A DNA stretch of 12,880 nt, taken from an uncultured Prevotella sp. (GTDB taxonomy: Bacteria > Bacteroidota > Bacteroidia > Bacteroidales > Bacteroidaceae). Made by a program: the position numbers and the translations under genes. Location of the stretch: the NCBI GenBank assembly GCA_900557035.1, contig USRA01000056.1:1-12880 (forward strand), given 5' to 3'. Shown here in pieces: positions 274 to 7,106 of this stretch. The notes under the pieces were generated by a model that was given only the letters and a program-made list of their open reading frames with translations, did no database searches and had not been told where the DNA came from. How positions within the stretch are numbered: position 1 is the stretch's first letter; every line of letters starts with the position of its first letter.

Positions 274-1101
274 TTATTTTTTAATATTCCAAGTTATACA
301 ATTCAAGGCTCCGCCTTGTTTAATGATCTCTTCACTATCCAACTGGTAGATATTACATGATGGATAGTATGTTTTTATTTGCTCCATAGCTTGCTCATCC
401 TCTTCTATGTTGATAGCTGGCAGAACGATGTTGTTGCCAACTTGCAGGAAGTTGATGTATGCCCAATTTCGCTTATCTGCTCGCTGCACATGATAATGTA
501 GCTTCTCTATCCGAAAACGGGTGGCAAACCGTCGCTCGAATTCTTCTGCAAGTTCCTGGTCGTAATCAGCATAGTTGGTCATTAGAAGATGTGACTCGTC
601 TATTGGTTTCACTATTCCATCAGCATGTCCATATTTCTCATATTTATCCCATGGAAGCATGATGACCTCACAATGAAATAGATTCTCCAACTCATTCAAT
701 ACTTCAGCTTGCGGATATTGAGCGTTTTCATAAAAAACTTTCTCTGTCATGATGATGCAATCATGGGCTTTAACCACATTCCCGCCATCTATTATCAAAT
801 CGGTGGTTTGGATATTGGGTAGTTTCAAAGCATTGCACACGCTCTTTGTATCCGTGATATATTGCTTGTCTGATTCTTTCTTTGTGAGATAATCGGGATA
901 ATACTGATACTGCAGAAAATCCTCTTCGGCTAGTTGAATCGGCATGTAGTCACGACACCAGATATCGGCTGTGTTTGATAACAGAGTCATATTGATGTGG
1001 ACATTCTTCAGTAACTCTGAAAAACGGCTGAAGAATGCGGGATGAACCTTTGGAAGCCATTCTGAAACGAATACCTGATTCGTATCTTTATCTACTATCA
1101 T
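274..1101 (-). CDS. Agmatine deiminase / peptidylarginine deiminase family protein (short form)
   Basis: This 275-residue protein has the guanidino-hydrolase (PAD_porph-type) fold signature. Visible motifs, in order, are W-C-R-D-Y-M-P (48-54), where family members have R-D-x-G-P; D-G-G-N (105-108); G-H-A-D-G (158-162), carrying the catalytic-type His/Asp; and G-G-A-L-N-C (263-268), with the nucleophile Cys268 near the C-terminus. In the family this Cys attacks the guanidino carbon, for example of agmatine, giving N-carbamoylputrescine and ammonia. Usual length is about 340-370 residues, so this is a compact variant and its true substrate is uncertain. There is no signal peptide, so it is probably cytoplasmic. 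Its ATG overlaps the upstream gene's TGA (ATGA, 1098-1101), which implies translational coupling in an operon with the next two genes. It is last in the operon. Family assignment is strong; agmatine as substrate is inference. Confidence 0.85.
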   Translation of the reverse strand: MIVDKDTNQVFVSEWLPKVHPAFFSRFSELLKNVHINMTLLSNTADIWCRDYMPIQLAEEDFLQYQYYPDYLTKKESDKQYITDTKSVCNALKLPNIQTTDLIIDGGNVVKAHDCIIMTEKVFYENAQYPQAEVLNELENLFHCEVIMLPWDKYEKYGHADGIVKPIDESHLLMTNYADYDQELAEEFERRFATRFRIEKLHYHVQRADKRNWAYINFLQVGNNIVLPAINIEEDEQAMEQIKTYYPSCNIYQLDSEEIIKQGGALNCITWNIKK

Positions 1102-1784
1102 ATCTGTATCTTTTTAAATTGCCATGGCCGTGGGTCTTGGATATGCTTCTTGTCTTTTGTTAAGGTGAACCCTTTGCCGAGAAGTTCCTGATGCTCTTTT
1201 GCTTGCATCTTCTGCCCGTTTTCATCATATTTCGCCACGTTCTTGCGCACATCAGCTTCTACCTCTACCTTTTCTTCTCCATCAACCCATTTGATGGAGA
1301 AGCCATCAAAGATGGAGGCTTGCGAATAAAGCATATCATATAATAAGGAGGAACGACTGTCGGGTGGATTTCCATCTACAGAAAACTCACGTATCAGCAG
1401 GGATGCCCTGATGGCATCTTCTGGATGGGTGCCTTTCTCGAACGTGATGTCGATTCCTGAAACATGGTTGTGCAGGATGCCCAACTTGAAGATGCTCTTG
1501 GGAGAACCATTCTTGGGGTTGCGATGATATACGATGGGGTCTTTGATGCCACCCTCGGCCTCTTCGTGATAGTAGAACTCCACACACGTGGGTTGTACTG
1601 TTACCTGTTGGATACCAGTACTTACCAGGAAGTGACCGGCTAAAGCTATCTGAGCGATTTCCTTGAATTCAGAAGGGATGAATGGGGTGCCCTGATTTCC
1701 GAATGGGTGGTCTTCGTTCAGAATTTTTCTCCGTGTATCCTCACTCAAGGAAAATGATTCTAAAGTTTTTTTCAAGTTCTGCAT
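1098..1784 (-). CDS. Conserved hypothetical protein, possible remote alkyladenine-DNA-glycosylase fold
   Basis: This is a 228-residue soluble protein with no signal peptide or membrane segment. I do not recognise it with certainty. By eye, the middle has the order of elements of Mpg/AAG 3-methyladenine glycosylases. A-x-x-L-A-G-H-F-L-V (around 45-54) resembles the A-x-x-L-L-G-K-x-L-V start. V-E-F-Y (68-71) resembles the catalytic E-A-Y, and D-P-I-V-Y-H (82-87) resembles the conserved D-x-x-x-H. I-D-I-T-F followed by A-S-L-L-I-R (111-132) resembles the N-I-S...V-L-L-R strand pair. The charged tail (170-228) has no match I know. An A-rich purine tract (aaaggaaaag) precedes the ATG. It sits 51 bp after the sigma/macro fusion gene and overlaps the deiminase gene by 4 bp, so it is the middle gene of an operon. 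That it is a real gene is fairly certain; the function is a guess. Confidence 0.7.
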   Translation of the reverse strand: MQNLKKTLESFSLSEDTRRKILNEDHPFGNQGTPFIPSEFKEIAQIALAGHFLVSTGIQQVTVQPTCVEFYYHEEAEGGIKDPIVYHRNPKNGSPKSIFKLGILHNHVSGIDITFEKGTHPEDAIRASLLIREFSVDGNPPDSRSSLLYDMLYSQASIFDGFSIKWVDGEEKVEVEADVRKNVAKYDENGQKMQAKEHQELLGKGFTLTKDKKHIQDPRPWQFKKIQI

Positions 1785-1835: not shown

Positions 1836-3008
1836 TTACTCTATCACCTCCCAGAAACTCTCCGGCAAGCTGATGTTCTTCATCTTCTTTGCGCTCTTGA
1901 ACAATGGGGCGATGTCTTCGGCTTCGAAGCCGGCGATGCCGCAACCTATTGGGGTTACCAGGAAATGTAGCTCGGGATGCTGATGGGCAAAGATAATGAA
2001 TTCCTCCACGTATGGACGGATGGTTTCCACGCCGCCCTGCATTGTAGGGATGGCGTAACTCTGGCCCTGCAAGCCTACACCCTTGCCCATGACGGCACCG
2101 AAATGCAGGCGGGCAATGCGGGCAGCTCCACCACCATGCATGCCAGCCAGATTGCTACCAAACACAAAAATCTCGTTCTCTTTTAATGAATCAATCCAGC
2201 TAGGAGTGATTCTTCCCTTCTTCATATCTTCCATATTATTCTTATTATTAAATATGTTATTGCCATTATCTGCCGCTTCCTCGCAGCACATGCATTCTGC
2301 CATCATTCTCGGCATAGAACTCATGCTCGGCATCGACATCTTTGGAGCACTTGAAACAGATGTGTCTTCCTCTGCGAACGACAGATAGCTTCCGTATTCC
2401 GATGCGTCGAAGTATCTCTTGAAATAAGGAATCACCACATCGTGCATCATCTTCTGGCAACGCTGGGTGACGGCAGAATGGGATATGCCCAACTGGGCGG
2501 CTACGTCCTTGCCCCTGAATCCCTCTATATAGAGCATCTTCAGGATGATGCTGTTCTTGCTGTCTCTGCCATAATAGAAATTGCCGATATCTTCTATCGT
2601 CTGGTAAAGATCGTGCTCAAACTGGTTGTCGGTTACGTCAAACTGCATCTTGCGGCTTTCCTGCCGTGCTTCGAAACTCTCGAAGCGATGCTCCTTCACC
2701 ACCTCCTTCAGTTTATCCAGCAGCAGGAACCGGAAGCCGTTTACCATCCATGTTTTGAGCGACATGCTTGGCTTTCTATCTTCCAAAGGCTTGAAGTCGT
2801 GTTCGCAGAGATAGAGATAGTATTCGTGAGCCAGCGAGAAGAAATCCATACCTGGCTTGTGCTGCAGGTCATATCGCTTGTCGTAGATGCAATAAGCCAC
2901 CCGGCAGTATCCGTAGTAATACTCCCTTACTATTCTGGCATTGGCATCCTTGAAGCCCTGCAGAATCTCATCATCCGATAAACTTTCTAAATTCTTTTCT
3001 TTCTTCAT
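1836..3008 (-). CDS. Sigma-70-like protein fused to a macro-like (ADP-ribose-binding type) domain
   Basis: About 390 residues. The N-terminal 210 or so look like a divergent sigma-70 family protein: a region-2-like segment ending L-K-T-W-M-V-N-G-F-R-F-L-L-L-D-K-L-K (around 84-101), then a region-4-like helix-turn-helix G-K-D-V-A-A-Q-L-G-I-S-H-S-A-V-T-Q-R (165-182). A Met/Ser/Pro-rich then Asn-rich linker (216-265, including a C-x-C-C cluster) follows. The C-terminal 112 residues carry E-I-F-V-F-G-S-N-L-A-G-x-H-G-G-G-A-A and T-P-I-G-C-G-I-A-G-F, typical of stand-alone macro-like proteins of phages and Bacteroidales. Start choice: the frame opens at a TTG (3035), but the -7 promoter element lies at 3044-3051, leaving almost no leader, so I use ATG at 3006-3008. 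It is first gene of the operon and divergent from an ECF sigma gene. Whether it drives transcription or only binds DNA is unknown. Confidence 0.8.
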   Translation of the reverse strand: MKKEKNLESLSDDEILQGFKDANARIVREYYYGYCRVAYCIYDKRYDLQHKPGMDFFSLAHEYYLYLCEHDFKPLEDRKPSMSLKTWMVNGFRFLLLDKLKEVVKEHRFESFEARQESRKMQFDVTDNQFEHDLYQTIEDIGNFYYGRDSKNSIILKMLYIEGFRGKDVAAQLGISHSAVTQRCQKMMHDVVIPYFKRYFDASEYGSYLSFAEEDTSVSSAPKMSMPSMSSMPRMMAECMCCEEAADNGNNIFNNKNNMEDMKKGRITPSWIDSLKENEIFVFGSNLAGMHGGGAARIARLHFGAVMGKGVGLQGQSYAIPTMQGGVETIRPYVEEFIIFAHQHPELHFLVTPIGCGIAGFEAEDIAPLFKSAKKMKNISLPESFWEVIE

Positions 3009-3043
3009 ATCGATATATCTTTTTGATATCCGCAATTCGATTG

Positions 3044-3051
3044 CAAATATA
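3044..3051 (-). promoter_or_regulatory. Bacteroidetes-type -7 element for the sigma/macro operon
   Basis: On the minus strand this reads TATATTTG, an exact TAnnTTTG. It predicts transcription starting a few bases beyond 3044 and a leader of roughly 30 nt before the ATG at 3008. No clear TTTG was found at the expected upstream distance, so strength is uncertain. Confidence 0.55.
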
Positions 3052-3224
3052 TACTTTTTCTTTGAGAAACCGGAGGAATAGCTCTTTTTTTTCTATTCTC
3101 TATGATATTAAAAGAGAAAAGAGAAGGAAAAATTAAGCTGGTATCGAAAAAAAAGTATCCCGCCTTTTTACTTTTCCCATTTTGAATGGTCATATAATCG
3201 TAACGTTCAAGAAATAAAACGAAT

Positions 3225-3764
3225 ATGAGTATAAACGACAATGGCATTATGGAAGCGCTGAAGGAAAATCCACAGAACGGATTTCGGATGCTGATGGCGA
3301 AATATCAGGAAAACGTATATTGGCATATTCGCCGACTGGTAGTTTCGCACGATGATGCACAGGATGCCTCGCAGGAAACCTTCGTGAGAATCTATCGCTC
3401 GTTCGGCAACTATCGGGGCGATTGCTCTCTGAGAAGCTGGATTTATCGCATAGCCACTAATGAGGCTCTTAGGATTATCAGCAAACGGAGACAGGAAGTT
3501 GTCTCCATTGAATCGGAAACCACAGGTGTCAACCTGATTCAAGGCGATGATTATATCGACTTCGATGATAAGGTGGCGGTGAAACTGCAGAAGGCGATTC
3601 TCTCGCTGCCGCCAAAGCAGCAGCTGGCATTCAATCTTCGGTATTACGATGAACTCGGGTTCGACGAAATAGCGAAGGTTGCGGATTCCACGCCAACCAG
3701 TATCAAGGCAAGCTATCATGTTGCCAAAGAGAAAATTATCAAGTACATGAATTCGAACGATTAA
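3225..3764 (+). CDS. ECF-type RNA polymerase sigma factor
   Basis: A 179-residue protein with the two-domain ECF layout. Region 2 spans about 20-88, with D-D-A-Q-D-A-S-Q-E-T-F-V-R-I-Y-R (43-58) and C-S-L-R-S-W-I-Y-R-I-A-T-N-E-A (67-81), which contact core polymerase and the -10 DNA. Region 4 spans about 120-173, with L-S-L-P-P-K-Q-Q-L-A-F-N-L-R-Y-Y (127-141) and a helix-turn-helix around F-D-E-I-A (146-150) to Y-H-V-A-K-E-K (164-170). It is followed 35 bp later by a one-pass anti-sigma-like gene and then a secreted Spy-like gene, a standard envelope-stress arrangement. No TAnnTTTG sequence precedes it at a plausible distance, which would fit an ECF-type autoregulated promoter, but that is inference. 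An alternative ATG lies at 3249. Confidence 0.92.
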   Translation: MSINDNGIMEALKENPQNGFRMLMAKYQENVYWHIRRLVVSHDDAQDASQETFVRIYRSFGNYRGDCSLRSWIYRIATNEALRIISKRRQEVVSIESETTGVNLIQGDDYIDFDDKVAVKLQKAILSLPPKQQLAFNLRYYDELGFDEIAKVADSTPTSIKASYHVAKEKIIKYMNSND

Positions 3765-4873: not shown

Positions 4874-6056
4874 ATTTCCTGCCTTGCTCATCTTTTCCTT
4901 GAGTATTCTTTTTTTCTTCCCAAGCCAGAATCAAGCCGATGACGCCTGAATAGCTCTTCCTGCCTTCTGCCACATGGTTGCCCCTGAGGTAGAGTTCGAA
5001 GATGAAATCCTGGGCGGCATCCAATGCCTTGCATCGCTTGCTGAACCAGTAACGGCGGTCGTTTCTTGCCCGCTGGATAATCTCGGGACGGATATGTTTC
5101 AGGAATCTTTCTCCCTCCTTTTCGCCGAGAATATCGAAAACATTGTTCAGTACGTGGAAGAAAATGTGGTAATAGCCGCTGAACCTCACCAGCTTATCTG
5201 CCGATACTGTGCACACGATGTAACTGTAGAAATTCGCCTCACCCTCGTTGGCTACACCCAGAAAGTGAGCAAACTCGTGGGCATAGGTGGCAGGATAATC
5301 GTGGGGAAGAATATCTCCATTAAGCGTGAACTCACAGAAGAAAGGCCCCATGCTTCCGGTAACGCCCGACATCGAACTGAGGGGTGTGAATAGCATCGTC
5401 TTGGCATGAGGATGCTGGTTGAAAGGTGCATTGATACCCTCCTTATAACCTATTTTATTATATTCCTTCAGAATCGCATCCCGCACCCGATTTTTCAAAC
5501 CATCATCTGCGATGCTATCAGAGAAAATGCTACTCCCGGCAATATCAGAAGAAATGCTTAAAGCGTTGAGGCTGTCGGCATATTGATAGGCGAATGCCTT
5601 GAATTTAGCTTCGCTTACTTCCACCGGCTTCATTCCTATTCTGTCATAGATATTCGGCTGGGAGTAGTTTAATCCCCAGGCGATGTAGAACCAGGCATAT
5701 ACCCAAAGCAGGTATTCTGCCACTCTTCCGAATACAACCTTCTTCTTGGGATAACAGCCTCTCTTCGCTGCCAGGAAGAAGTATCGCCTGGCAAGCTTCT
5801 TTCTCAATCCTATCTCATAGATGGGATAGAAGATAACCCAGGCAATGCTGAGAGCGATGAAAATATCGCCTACGGCAAAAGGAAAAAATCCTGAGATGGG
5901 AGAGAGGAGTGTGCCGATAATCGGATAGATACGGGTGGTGTAGATGAATCCCCATAGAGGAATCATTTTGGCAAGAGTAACGAGGAGGAGCAGTACCAGC
6001 AATAACCAGTGGCGCCACTTTACCCGATTGAGTCGAAATGTATGCAGTATCTTCAT
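4872..6056 (-). CDS. DUF3810 family membrane protein with an HExxH metallopeptidase-like motif
   Basis: 394 residues from the chosen ATG. There are three membrane segments: about 16-36, 55-81 (with the loop around S-P-I-S-G-F-F-P-F-A-V-G-D) and 112-130. A large C-terminal domain carries Y-A-H-E-F-A-H (258-264) followed by N-E-G-E-A-N-F (270-276). H-E-x-x-H plus a downstream Glu is the zincin arrangement, and this block is typical of DUF3810 proteins, which have no firmly established activity that I know of. Start choice: the frame opens 31 codons earlier (6149), but a -7 element TATTTTTG lies inside that stretch at 6106-6113. The ATG at 6054-6056, followed by K-I-L-H, is therefore the likely start. 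It is transcribed alone, divergently from the microprotein gene. Confidence 0.88.
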   Translation of the reverse strand: MKILHTFRLNRVKWRHWLLLVLLLLVTLAKMIPLWGFIYTTRIYPIIGTLLSPISGFFPFAVGDIFIALSIAWVIFYPIYEIGLRKKLARRYFFLAAKRGCYPKKKVVFGRVAEYLLWVYAWFYIAWGLNYSQPNIYDRIGMKPVEVSEAKFKAFAYQYADSLNALSISSDIAGSSIFSDSIADDGLKNRVRDAILKEYNKIGYKEGINAPFNQHPHAKTMLFTPLSSMSGVTGSMGPFFCEFTLNGDILPHDYPATYAHEFAHFLGVANEGEANFYSYIVCTVSADKLVRFSGYYHIFFHVLNNVFDILGEKEGERFLKHIRPEIIQRARNDRRYWFSKRCKALDAAQDFIFELYLRGNHVAEGRKSYSGVIGLILAWEEKKNTQGKDEQGRK

Positions 6057-6105
6057 ATTCTTTATTCTAATTGTTCTTAATGTTGCCAAATATGGCTTTC
6101 TGGTG

Positions 6106-6113
6106 CAAAAATA
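6106..6113 (-). promoter_or_regulatory. -7 promoter element of the DUF3810 gene
   Basis: The minus strand reads TATTTTTG, an exact TAnnTTTG, about 50 nt before the ATG at 6056. It decides the start codon, because the longer reading frame would begin upstream of the promoter. No good TTTG was seen further upstream. Confidence 0.6.
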
Positions 6114-6131
6114 CAAAAGTTTTCTGAATAG

Positions 6132-6165
6132 TTGACAGCATCGATTCATTTTTTTGCTATTTTTG
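6132..6165 (+). promoter_or_regulatory. Promoter of the microprotein gene
   Basis: The -7 element TATTTTTG is at 6158-6165. A TTG at 6132-6134 lies 23 nt upstream, slightly more than the usual 19-21 nt, so the upstream box is weak or absent. Predicted start is near 6171, giving a leader of about 50 nt before the ATG at 6221. Confidence 0.6.
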
Positions 6166-6220
6166 CATATACAAAAGATAGAAACGAATTTATTGACTTT
6201 AAGTAATAGGAGGGGCTATC

Positions 6221-6325
6221 ATGAAACAGACACAGGAAAAATTCGAGGCTATGAACCTAGAGTATGAGAACCTCTATAATGAGGAAGATGACCGCAGAGA
6301 TTATAATTCTGTTTGGTACAGTTAG
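6221..6325 (+). CDS. Small acidic protein of 34 residues, unknown function
   Basis: The ORF begins ATG at 6221 and ends TAG at 6323-6325. It is preceded by an excellent Shine-Dalgarno (aggagggg, 6208-6215) 5 nt from the ATG, unusual in a genome where most genes have none. The protein starts M-K-Q-T-Q-E-K-F-E, is rich in Glu/Asp (net charge about -5) and ends Y-N-S-V-W-Y-S with several aromatic residues. There is no signal peptide or membrane helix. It is likely helical in its first two thirds. It has its own upstream TAnnTTTG element and is followed by a hairpin, so it appears to be a complete single-gene unit between DUF3810 and the M15 peptidase. I do not recognise a family. A leader peptide is less likely because no gene follows on this strand. 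Confidence 0.65.
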   Translation: MKQTQEKFEAMNLEYENLYNEEDDRRDYNSVWYS

Positions 6326-6349
6326 GTAATTGAGTGCAGTTAGACAATA

Positions 6350-6398
6350 AAGGCTATGCTATTTGTTGCAGAATCTCAAGCAACAACAGCATAGCCTT
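6350..6398. terminator. Bidirectional hairpin between convergent genes
   Basis: The outer stem is a perfect 11 bp, aaggctatgct (6350-6360) with agcatagcctt (6388-6398). An inner stem pairs gttgc (6365-6369) with gcaac (6380-6384). T-rich sequence follows on the plus side and tttattg on the minus side. It separates the plus-strand microprotein gene from the minus-strand M15 peptidase gene. Confidence 0.75.
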
Positions 6399-6407
6399 CT
6401 TCTGTTC

Positions 6408-7106
6408 TTATTTCTCGAAGTGCTGGTAATCCTTGCTATGTTTCCAGTCGCCACCCCATCGGAACCCTTTCTCCTTGAAGAGCCGGTAGCATAAATCGCC
6501 CTTTCTGATCATGTAAGTATGGTGCTTGCTACGGTCGAGATAAGGTCGTGCCGTAGCTGGCTCTACCACTTCCTTGCCATTCTTCAAATGCTTATGATAG
6601 GGATTGTATAGGGTATTGATGTCAACGGCAAGTCCCTTGCCATGCTTCGAGACGGTCTTGGTATGTGAGATGAATCGGAAATTGAAGCTGGAGGAGTTGT
6701 TGTCCCTCATCGCCCTCTCGTCATCGGCATCCCAGTAGTCGATAAGCCTCATTCGCTCTATCGGATATTTTGCCTTATATAGCTTTTTGAGAATATCGAG
6801 CACATCTGCCGCTATCGCCTTGTTTACCACCATTTCACCTACGATGTTTCTGCCGTCCTTATCCACATGCAGGCATCTCAGATATCGCAGTTCGCTTCTT
6901 GCTACGGTGCAATTCTTTTTATACGTCTTTCCTTGCATCAGATGGAAGATGGGGTCAGGGATAGGAGAGATGGAGAAGAAATGCTTCTCTCCAAGTTTTC
7001 TGATGGTTTGCTCGCTGACGATATCTCCCGGCTTCTGCGCCTTGGATGGAAGGCAGCAAAGCATGGGAAGAGCAAGGTATAGGATGATGATCTTTTTCCA
7101 AAACAT
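6408..7106 (-). CDS. Secreted M15-family peptidase (D-Ala-D-Ala carboxypeptidase-like)
   Basis: 232 residues. A signal peptide covers about 1-23 (F-W-K-K, a hydrophobic core, then P-S-K-A before Q-K-P). The zinc site of M15 peptidases is visible: S-K-H-G-K-G-L-A-V-D (153-162) gives His155 and Asp162, and the C-terminal G-G-D-W-K-H-S-K-D-Y-Q-H-F-E (218-231) gives His229. The family cleaves D,D- or L,D- bonds of peptidoglycan stem peptides, so it is probably a periplasmic wall-remodelling enzyme. Which bond is cut cannot be told from sequence. A clear Shine-Dalgarno, aaggag, lies 9 nt before the ATG. The 43-bp gap from the RAM-domain gene upstream would allow co-transcription. It ends at the bidirectional hairpin. 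Confidence 0.9.
   Translation of the reverse strand: MFWKKIIILYLALPMLCCLPSKAQKPGDIVSEQTIRKLGEKHFFSISPIPDPIFHLMQGKTYKKNCTVARSELRYLRCLHVDKDGRNIVGEMVVNKAIAADVLDILKKLYKAKYPIERMRLIDYWDADDERAMRDNNSSSFNFRFISHTKTVSKHGKGLAVDINTLYNPYHKHLKNGKEVVEPATARPYLDRSKHHTYMIRKGDLCYRLFKEKGFRWGGDWKHSKDYQHFEK

Follow-up and report, generated by a model that had tools for sequence, protein, structure and literature searches.

Ligand- or protein-gated C-terminal extensions are an established feature of some ECF sigma factors (PMC8999054). In the DarG/TARG1 macro domains a role has been assigned to a lysine (K80 / K84), and K80 is catalytic in TaqDarG (PMC8501950). Here we describe a gene of an uncultured Prevotella sp. 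whose single open frame joins a sigma-type half to a half of the macro superfamily.

Architecture of the fusion gene

The window, that is the whole 12,880-nucleotide stretch analysed (contig USRA01000056.1), carries the fusion gene on its minus strand (1836..3008). The ATG is at 3008, the stop ends at 1836, and the frame encodes 390 aa without an internal stop; homologues and the presence of both halves at related loci support it. The first-pass annotation had described a continuous frame with three motifs, and we found all of them: GSNLAGMHGGGAA, the first ligand-loop motif (residues 284-296; 2121..2159, minus strand), GCGIAGF, the second one (residues 355-361; 1926..1946, minus strand), and a C-x-C-C cluster (residues 239-242; 2283..2294, minus strand). 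The cluster lies in a variable linker (residues 201-261; 2226..2408, minus strand) which is unconserved between species, and it had been suggested to act as a redox or metal switch. Among the loci compared, the cluster was restricted to Segatella copri and the linker diverges elsewhere, so this idea was dropped.

The ECF-type sigma half comprises residues 9-200 (2409..2984, minus strand). Within it, residues 154-183 (2460..2549, minus strand) form the region 4 helix-turn-helix, which matches Pfam PF08281 at E 0.0044, below the gathering score. In single-sequence Pfam searches the sigma and HTH models all stayed below their gathering scores, and TIGR02937 (sigma70-ECF) gave E 2.6e-6 and 27.1 bits, with a model cutoff of 42.9. 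We therefore compared alignments: 27 N-halves against 15 ECF-type proteins drawn from the phylum sample together with the window's own ECF sigma. The hhalign probability was 98.8% (E 4e-17, 166 columns over sigma2 and sigma4), and the unrelated C-half gave 4.2% as a control. Since the comparison set was taken from matches of the N-half family's own profile, this is a confirmation and not an independent test. The best PDB sequence match of the N-half profile was FliA (E 2e-4). As in ECF group 4, sigma2 and sigma4 regions lie within about 190 aa; the score does not rise above the curated sigma models. Because those cutoffs are not reached, we use the label ECF-like and assign no named ECF group. 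Judged by profile comparison, the N-terminal half, which had been read as sigma-70-like, is homologous to ECF sigmas and of a divergent ECF type.

The macro-superfamily (A1S_2505) half comprises residues 262-390 (1839..2225, minus strand). Over residues 280-385 this half scores E 5e-43 and 145.7 bits against NCBIfam NF049995 (entitled 'A1S_2505 family phage non-structural protein'), above the curated cutoff of 45, and in PHROGs the half belongs to family 2072 (PHROG 2072), whose function is unstated. The single-sequence Pfam search again stayed below gathering scores. We considered the canonical macro family (PF01661) as its identity: the window's domain obtained no family, two of 37 aligned members matched (best E 0.009, short of the gathering score), and hhalign against canonical PF01661 macro domains of the same genomes gave 40%, which together were too weak alone. 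The DarG-like macro domains then matched with 91.6% (E 8e-7, 99 columns), and the controls gave 0.8% (vWA) and 0.5% (canonical-macro subset). No solved relative stood above noise. By this comparison the C-terminal half is homologous to DarG-like macro domains, in agreement with its earlier description as macro-like, and the domain assignments of both halves are fairly safe at the profile level.

The vWA partner gene and a promoter-like element

The vWA gene is the usual neighbour of the fusion gene. By neighbour-ORF clustering, a vWA-domain gene was found near the fusion in 29 of 34 loci, with a cut copy at the end of L001. Of 52 loci, 37 have it in divergent orientation at a distance of 100-200 bp and one at 1.5 kb; in seven it lies elsewhere in the stretch, and in seven it was unseen. 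The divergent arrangement at 100-200 bp accounts for 34 of 48 after four duplicate places are dropped. In the sample of 301 genomes from the family of S. copri, any vWA match at E <= 1e-10 occurs in 80. We drew the line for a partner-type vWA at 320 bits after seeing the gap between 324.6 and 257 bits, and above it are 18 of the 301 genomes: 16 of the 19 with the fusion vs 2 of the 282 others. The vWA gene adjoins the fusion gene in 15 of those 16 and lies about 6 kb off in S. copri. At L090 a different vWA gene (PF00092, E 5.6e-8) takes the partner's place.

In the S. copri locus L003, the order is fusion, a 230-aa gene, an agmatine-deiminase-like gene, ARH, a DUF3990 gene and vWA; the window stops after the agmatine-deiminase-like gene. 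Directly downstream of its fusion gene, the window encodes a 228-aa protein (1098-1784, minus strand) to which Pfam, NCBIfam, PHROGs and PADLOC all gave no match. Divergently upstream is an ordinary ECF sigma gene (3225-3764, plus strand), followed by a putative anti-sigma-like gene; in L001 this sigma gene is absent from the side of the fusion. We rejected these neighbours (the agmatine-deiminase-like, 228-aa and upstream ECF sigma genes) as conserved context since they are not retained outside S. copri.

The divergent regions between vWA and fusion genes share an element with the vWA-sense consensus GCTTAATTTTT-N9/10-CTTCTTTAAAGAGATAAA. Our scoring matrix was built from 25 sites, all from among the 37 divergent regions, and the two blocks stand at a 9-10 bp gap in 24 of these 25 sites. 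All 37 regions contain the element in a single orientation (best matrix score 20.2-47.0). Where the vWA gene lies elsewhere (L003, L004, L017, L021, L025, L028 and L029, none in the training set), the element was found just before it in 7/7 loci (22.4-38.4), with no comparable score elsewhere in the stretch. The element thus belongs to the vWA gene, as displaced vWA genes keep it immediately upstream. In two genomes with a partner-type vWA and no fusion (G444 and G472), the region before the vWA gene scores -3.0 at best. Shuffled DNA (3 x 368 kb) gave one match of at least 15 and none of at least 18. Four loci depart from this pattern: the element is present but a partner-type vWA is not seen in L009 and L092, and L012 and L075 have neither.

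Whole genomes were scanned with a fixed-gap pattern, so that weaker regulon sites could be missed. In 12 fusion genomes, the pattern found the vWA site in 12/12 (10 at <=2 mismatches, two at 3) and four further matches, of which three had 3 mismatches and the other had 2. The 12 genomes without the fusion yielded 10 matches, all with 3 mismatches. The background is not low: in the fusion genomes a reversed pattern gave 14 matches vs 16 for the true one at <=3 mismatches. Since good matches are few, a small regulon is likely as far as good sites are concerned; weak sites fall outside this inference. By these pattern searches, a conserved promoter-like element precedes the vWA gene and has few other good matches in the scanned genomes.

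An opposite copy of the element faces the fusion gene in 13 loci (L005-L011, L013-L016, L018 and L019; 14.1-33.0). In the window we observed a weak copy 90 bp before the fusion ATG and directed towards the fusion gene (3099..3139, minus strand), with a matrix score of 14.6, the best in 3009-3224 and a level equalled by one match in 1.1 Mb of shuffled DNA. L002 shares this site and L001 has a stronger one, at 24.2; in L003 the region ahead of the fusion gene lacks the element (best 5.3). By eye, we take TATATTTG (3044..3051, minus strand) to resemble the Bacteroidetes -7 box TAnnTTTG.

We favour a reading in which the fusion protein would be a locus-specific, divergent ECF-like sigma with a built-in ADPr-type ligand domain, acting on the vWA partner. 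The profiles establish the homology; we infer the mechanism, about which our confidence is evenly divided. The sigma half would steer RNA polymerase to the element, using a -35-like CTTAAT and a -10-like TTTAAAG about 17 nt apart. The regulon would be mainly the vWA gene, plus the fusion gene itself where a second copy faces it. The macro domain would bind an ADP-ribose-type ligand (ADPr, O-acetyl-ADPr or protein-borne ADPr) and would gate the sigma half in the manner of the SnoaL-like or Cys-rich extensions of other ECF sigmas. The vWA protein may be an effector or a feedback partner, and a vWA-macro contact is suggested by the direct vWA-macro fusions described below. Such a circuit of sigma, element and vWA is plausible. 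The first-pass annotation had spoken of a one-component regulator; this description was incomplete, as most loci add a vWA partner gene with a conserved element.

The same protein could instead be a locus-specific DNA-binding repressor or autoregulator which has a sigma fold but is not a working sigma; its HTH would sit on the palindromic element between the divergent genes until a ligand sensed by the macro domain releases it. The element core is nearly palindromic and would suit an operator too. The opposite second copy in 13 loci, the scarcity of good matches elsewhere in the genome and a sigma half that stays below curated cutoffs are also consistent with a repressor. However, the ECF similarity extends over sigma2 as well as sigma4, more than a repressor that uses just its HTH should require, and the two blocks with their fixed gap look like a promoter. 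We consider a repressor unlikely, but the most serious competitor of a working sigma.

Possible ligand and activity of the macro half

An ADP-ribose-type ligand is expected mainly because of the fusion partners of the A1S_2505 domain, which makes the expectation circumstantial. The partners come from 20 places with long open frames among the matches listed, which are not a random set, and ten proteins were scanned per library. The domain was found fused to NADAR (L064), to ADP-ribosylglycohydrolase (ADP_ribosyl_GH; L100, L105 and L107, and L111 via the DraG model), to PARG_cat_microb (L099), to DUF1810 (L096 and L037) and to vWA (L102 and L114). ADPr-type genes also occur within the stretches examined, namely ARH in 6 of 34 loci, Nudix in three, Sir2 in two and DUF3990 in one, as counts that were not compared with a background rate. 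The DUF3990 neighbour is presumably ADP-ribosyltransferase-like. The link to ADP-ribose drawn in the first-pass annotation is thus borne out by context only, through fusion partners and neighbours.

The S. copri genome that contains L001 (G001) has a second A1S_2505-domain gene, which is the DUF1810 fusion L037 (1093-1953, minus strand), and a short third A1S_2505 piece (L038). Another A1S_2505-domain protein (L110, 2081-3466, minus strand) contains a long array of near-identical GAATAGSY repeats.

The domain had been called an ADP-ribose-type sensor or hydrolase. Where DarG-like domains have PTK, we observed PTM in 30/30 fusions, with the Met aligned to the catalytic lysine. PTK was present in 13 of the 15 distinct DarG-like rows, with its lysine at residue 79-82, a position from which we take it to correspond to K80. 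Since Met replaces the catalytic lysine, a DarG-type hydrolase is disfavoured and the sensor, or reader, is the likelier half of the earlier proposal, on the sequence motif. In three rumen Bacteroidales loci (L025, L028 and L029), both loop motifs (GMHGGG and GCGIAGF) are lost, SYAIPTMQG is kept and the domain is retained. These members may form a binding-dead or repurposed branch.

If the macro half were nevertheless an enzyme, it would strip ADP-ribose from the vWA partner, the transcription machinery or DNA, and the sigma half would only localise it. The same domain is fused to ADPr hydrolases, and a His and a Cys in the loops are invariant or near-invariant in most members, as an enzyme would have it. 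The exchange of the DarG/TARG1 lysine in all 30 fusions compared speaks against this, as do the three members that keep the domain without either loop motif. We regard an enzymatic role as rather improbable.

The gene could also derive from a phage or another mobile element and serve as a conflict module. Its macro half would then counteract defence signals made of ADPr or derived from NAD, with the sigma half setting when the module is expressed. Of 50,697 phage records, 423 contain the A1S_2505 domain; two fusion loci are on IMG/VR contigs and one is on a plasmid. On the other hand, a single phage record contains the sigma half, and this is a 4-kb contig that lacks annotation and shares 97.5% identity with the query; the S. 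copri copy sits among ordinary chromosomal genes. The window protein had no match in the PADLOC anti-phage defence library. We think that a conflict module has little chance of being the right description.

Distribution of the fusion and comparison with known systems

In a search of 5.8 billion proteins, 7060 homologues at E <= 1e-3 were found among 7999 scored candidates, and the 120 matches listed align to 98-100% of the query length, with identities of 89-98%. With the N-half profile we fetched 32 loci, 30 of them genomic (S. copri, Leyella, Hallella, Prevotella and rumen Bacteroidales) and two from IMG/VR. Both halves were seen at 31/32 and formed one open frame in 30/31; the exceptions are a frameshift in L017 and the end of the contig within L019. 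N-half identity falls to 39% among loci that still have the one-ORF fusion. Related fusions had been anticipated in Bacteroidales, and they are indeed present in Prevotellaceae and other Bacteroidales.

In the 301-genome sample, the NF049995 domain occurs in 141 genomes. The N-half profile at E <= 1e-10 gave 21 matches there, 19 strong and two weak. All 19 strong ones share their ORF with NF049995, and no strong sigma-half match without the macro half was found among the 301 genomes. The two weak ones (G548 and G482; E 7e-18 and 3e-15) are stand-alone sigma-half relatives of about 190 aa, with no macro or vWA match in the surrounding stretch examined. In the phylum sample of 296 genomes, the sole strong N-half match was the centre genome itself. 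A further 37 genomes match weakly (E 2e-6 to 9e-4), and most of the 24 weak ORFs examined look like ordinary ECF sigmas.

It is hardly credible that readthrough between two adjacent genes created the open frame by accident: strains with a single half or a frameshift exist (including L017) and the public annotation of a plasmid copy covers the C-terminal 124 aa only, but the unbroken ORF at 30/31 loci, with N-halves as distant as stated, and in 19/19 strong matches rules this out as the general case. It also excludes the outcome that the first-pass annotation had named as refuting, homologues always split into two genes, and with it a lost stop codon here. On this evidence from related sequences, sigma-type and macro-superfamily halves are fused in one real gene.

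Broken or cut N-halves occur mainly in S. copri (frameshifted or cut, e.g. P0126, P0136 and P0134), as do C-only proteins of 132 aa (e.g. P0251 and P0255). A 277-aa form in the protein database (P0222-P0241), seen on several contigs, lacks most of the sigma2 region through a clean in-frame deletion and retains the HTH and the macro half. For the origin of the fusion we built a macro-domain tree (65 rows, 126 columns). Sigma-fused rows were scattered and did not form one group, with 11 label changes of which at least four are forced by well-supported branches, so a single fusion origin without losses is unsupported; some of the 'stand-alone' protein-database rows may be internal-start calls of fused genes.

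An ATG at the domain boundary (Met259; 2232..2234, minus strand) is a candidate second translation start. After near-copies were removed (35 of 46 fusions kept), a Met stands 19-24 residues before VFGSN in 28/35 fusions, vs 9-16/35 in seven six-residue windows upstream. The leader is AT-rich: the A+T content of the 20 nt before boundary ATGs is 69%, close to the 70% of true gene starts, and 50% for other internal ATGs (Mann-Whitney p 1.6e-11, with no correction for relatedness). Because A+T rises at the boundary regardless of Met, this signal could be due in part to composition. In the plasmid copy mentioned above (L137, Prevotella sp. E2-28, 5992-7104), the annotated protein starts at the boundary ATG, and the 741 nt open frame upstream, with the sigma half, is left unannotated.

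It is possible, and we propose it tentatively, that one gene yields two products, the fusion and an internal-start macro-only protein, which together with vWA make a self-contained ADPr-responsive switch. The fused copy would be adjusted by the ligand state and by the free macro copy. Its sigma half would serve essentially one dedicated promoter, as an ADPr-gated sigma with a one-gene regulon.

Judged from its sequence, the sigma-macro gene with its vWA partner and its own control site looks like an undescribed small genetic switch in some gut and rumen bacteria of the Prevotella group. If the favoured reading is true, transcription initiation in these common bacteria takes a direct input from ADP-ribose or a different metabolite derived from NAD, and the input domain belongs to a family that so far has had a phage-protein label alone. 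With a regulon of one locus, a single experiment could address ligand, promoter and output together, and the conserved element is a ready-made promoter for a reporter test. The gene would also provide a functional handle on the A1S_2505 family in those phage records.

The first-pass annotation knew of no described function, and we found none in the open-licence literature. A description of the sigma-macro fusion was likewise not found there, which leaves its absence from print unproven; in the literature so searched, a macro domain as an ECF sigma extension is unprecedented. The word stem 'macro' is absent from the ECF review, which cites a reclassification with 26 extension-bearing groups (PMC8999054). 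In the NAD+-ADPr network survey, which covers viruses, 'sigma' is absent from the main text (PMC9503650). No obvious DarT/DarG pair was present in the stretches read around the fusion.

Like the extension-bearing ECF sigmas, the protein has a two-domain ECF-type sigma followed by an extension, which in those proteins has a sensory role (PMC8999054); unlike them, its extension is a macro-superfamily domain. The C-half is a member of the A1S_2505 family (NF049995; PHROG 2072), a family without a stated function, but in contrast to the phage label of that family the domain is here encoded by bacterial genomes and joined to a sigma half. It resembles the DarG/TARG1-type macro domains in profile and differs from them by the Met in place of the PTK lysine and by its junction to a sigma half. 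As in the proteins of the NAD+-ADPr network (NADAR, ADPr-glycohydrolase and macro), ADPr-handling domains are mixed and fused (PMC9503650).
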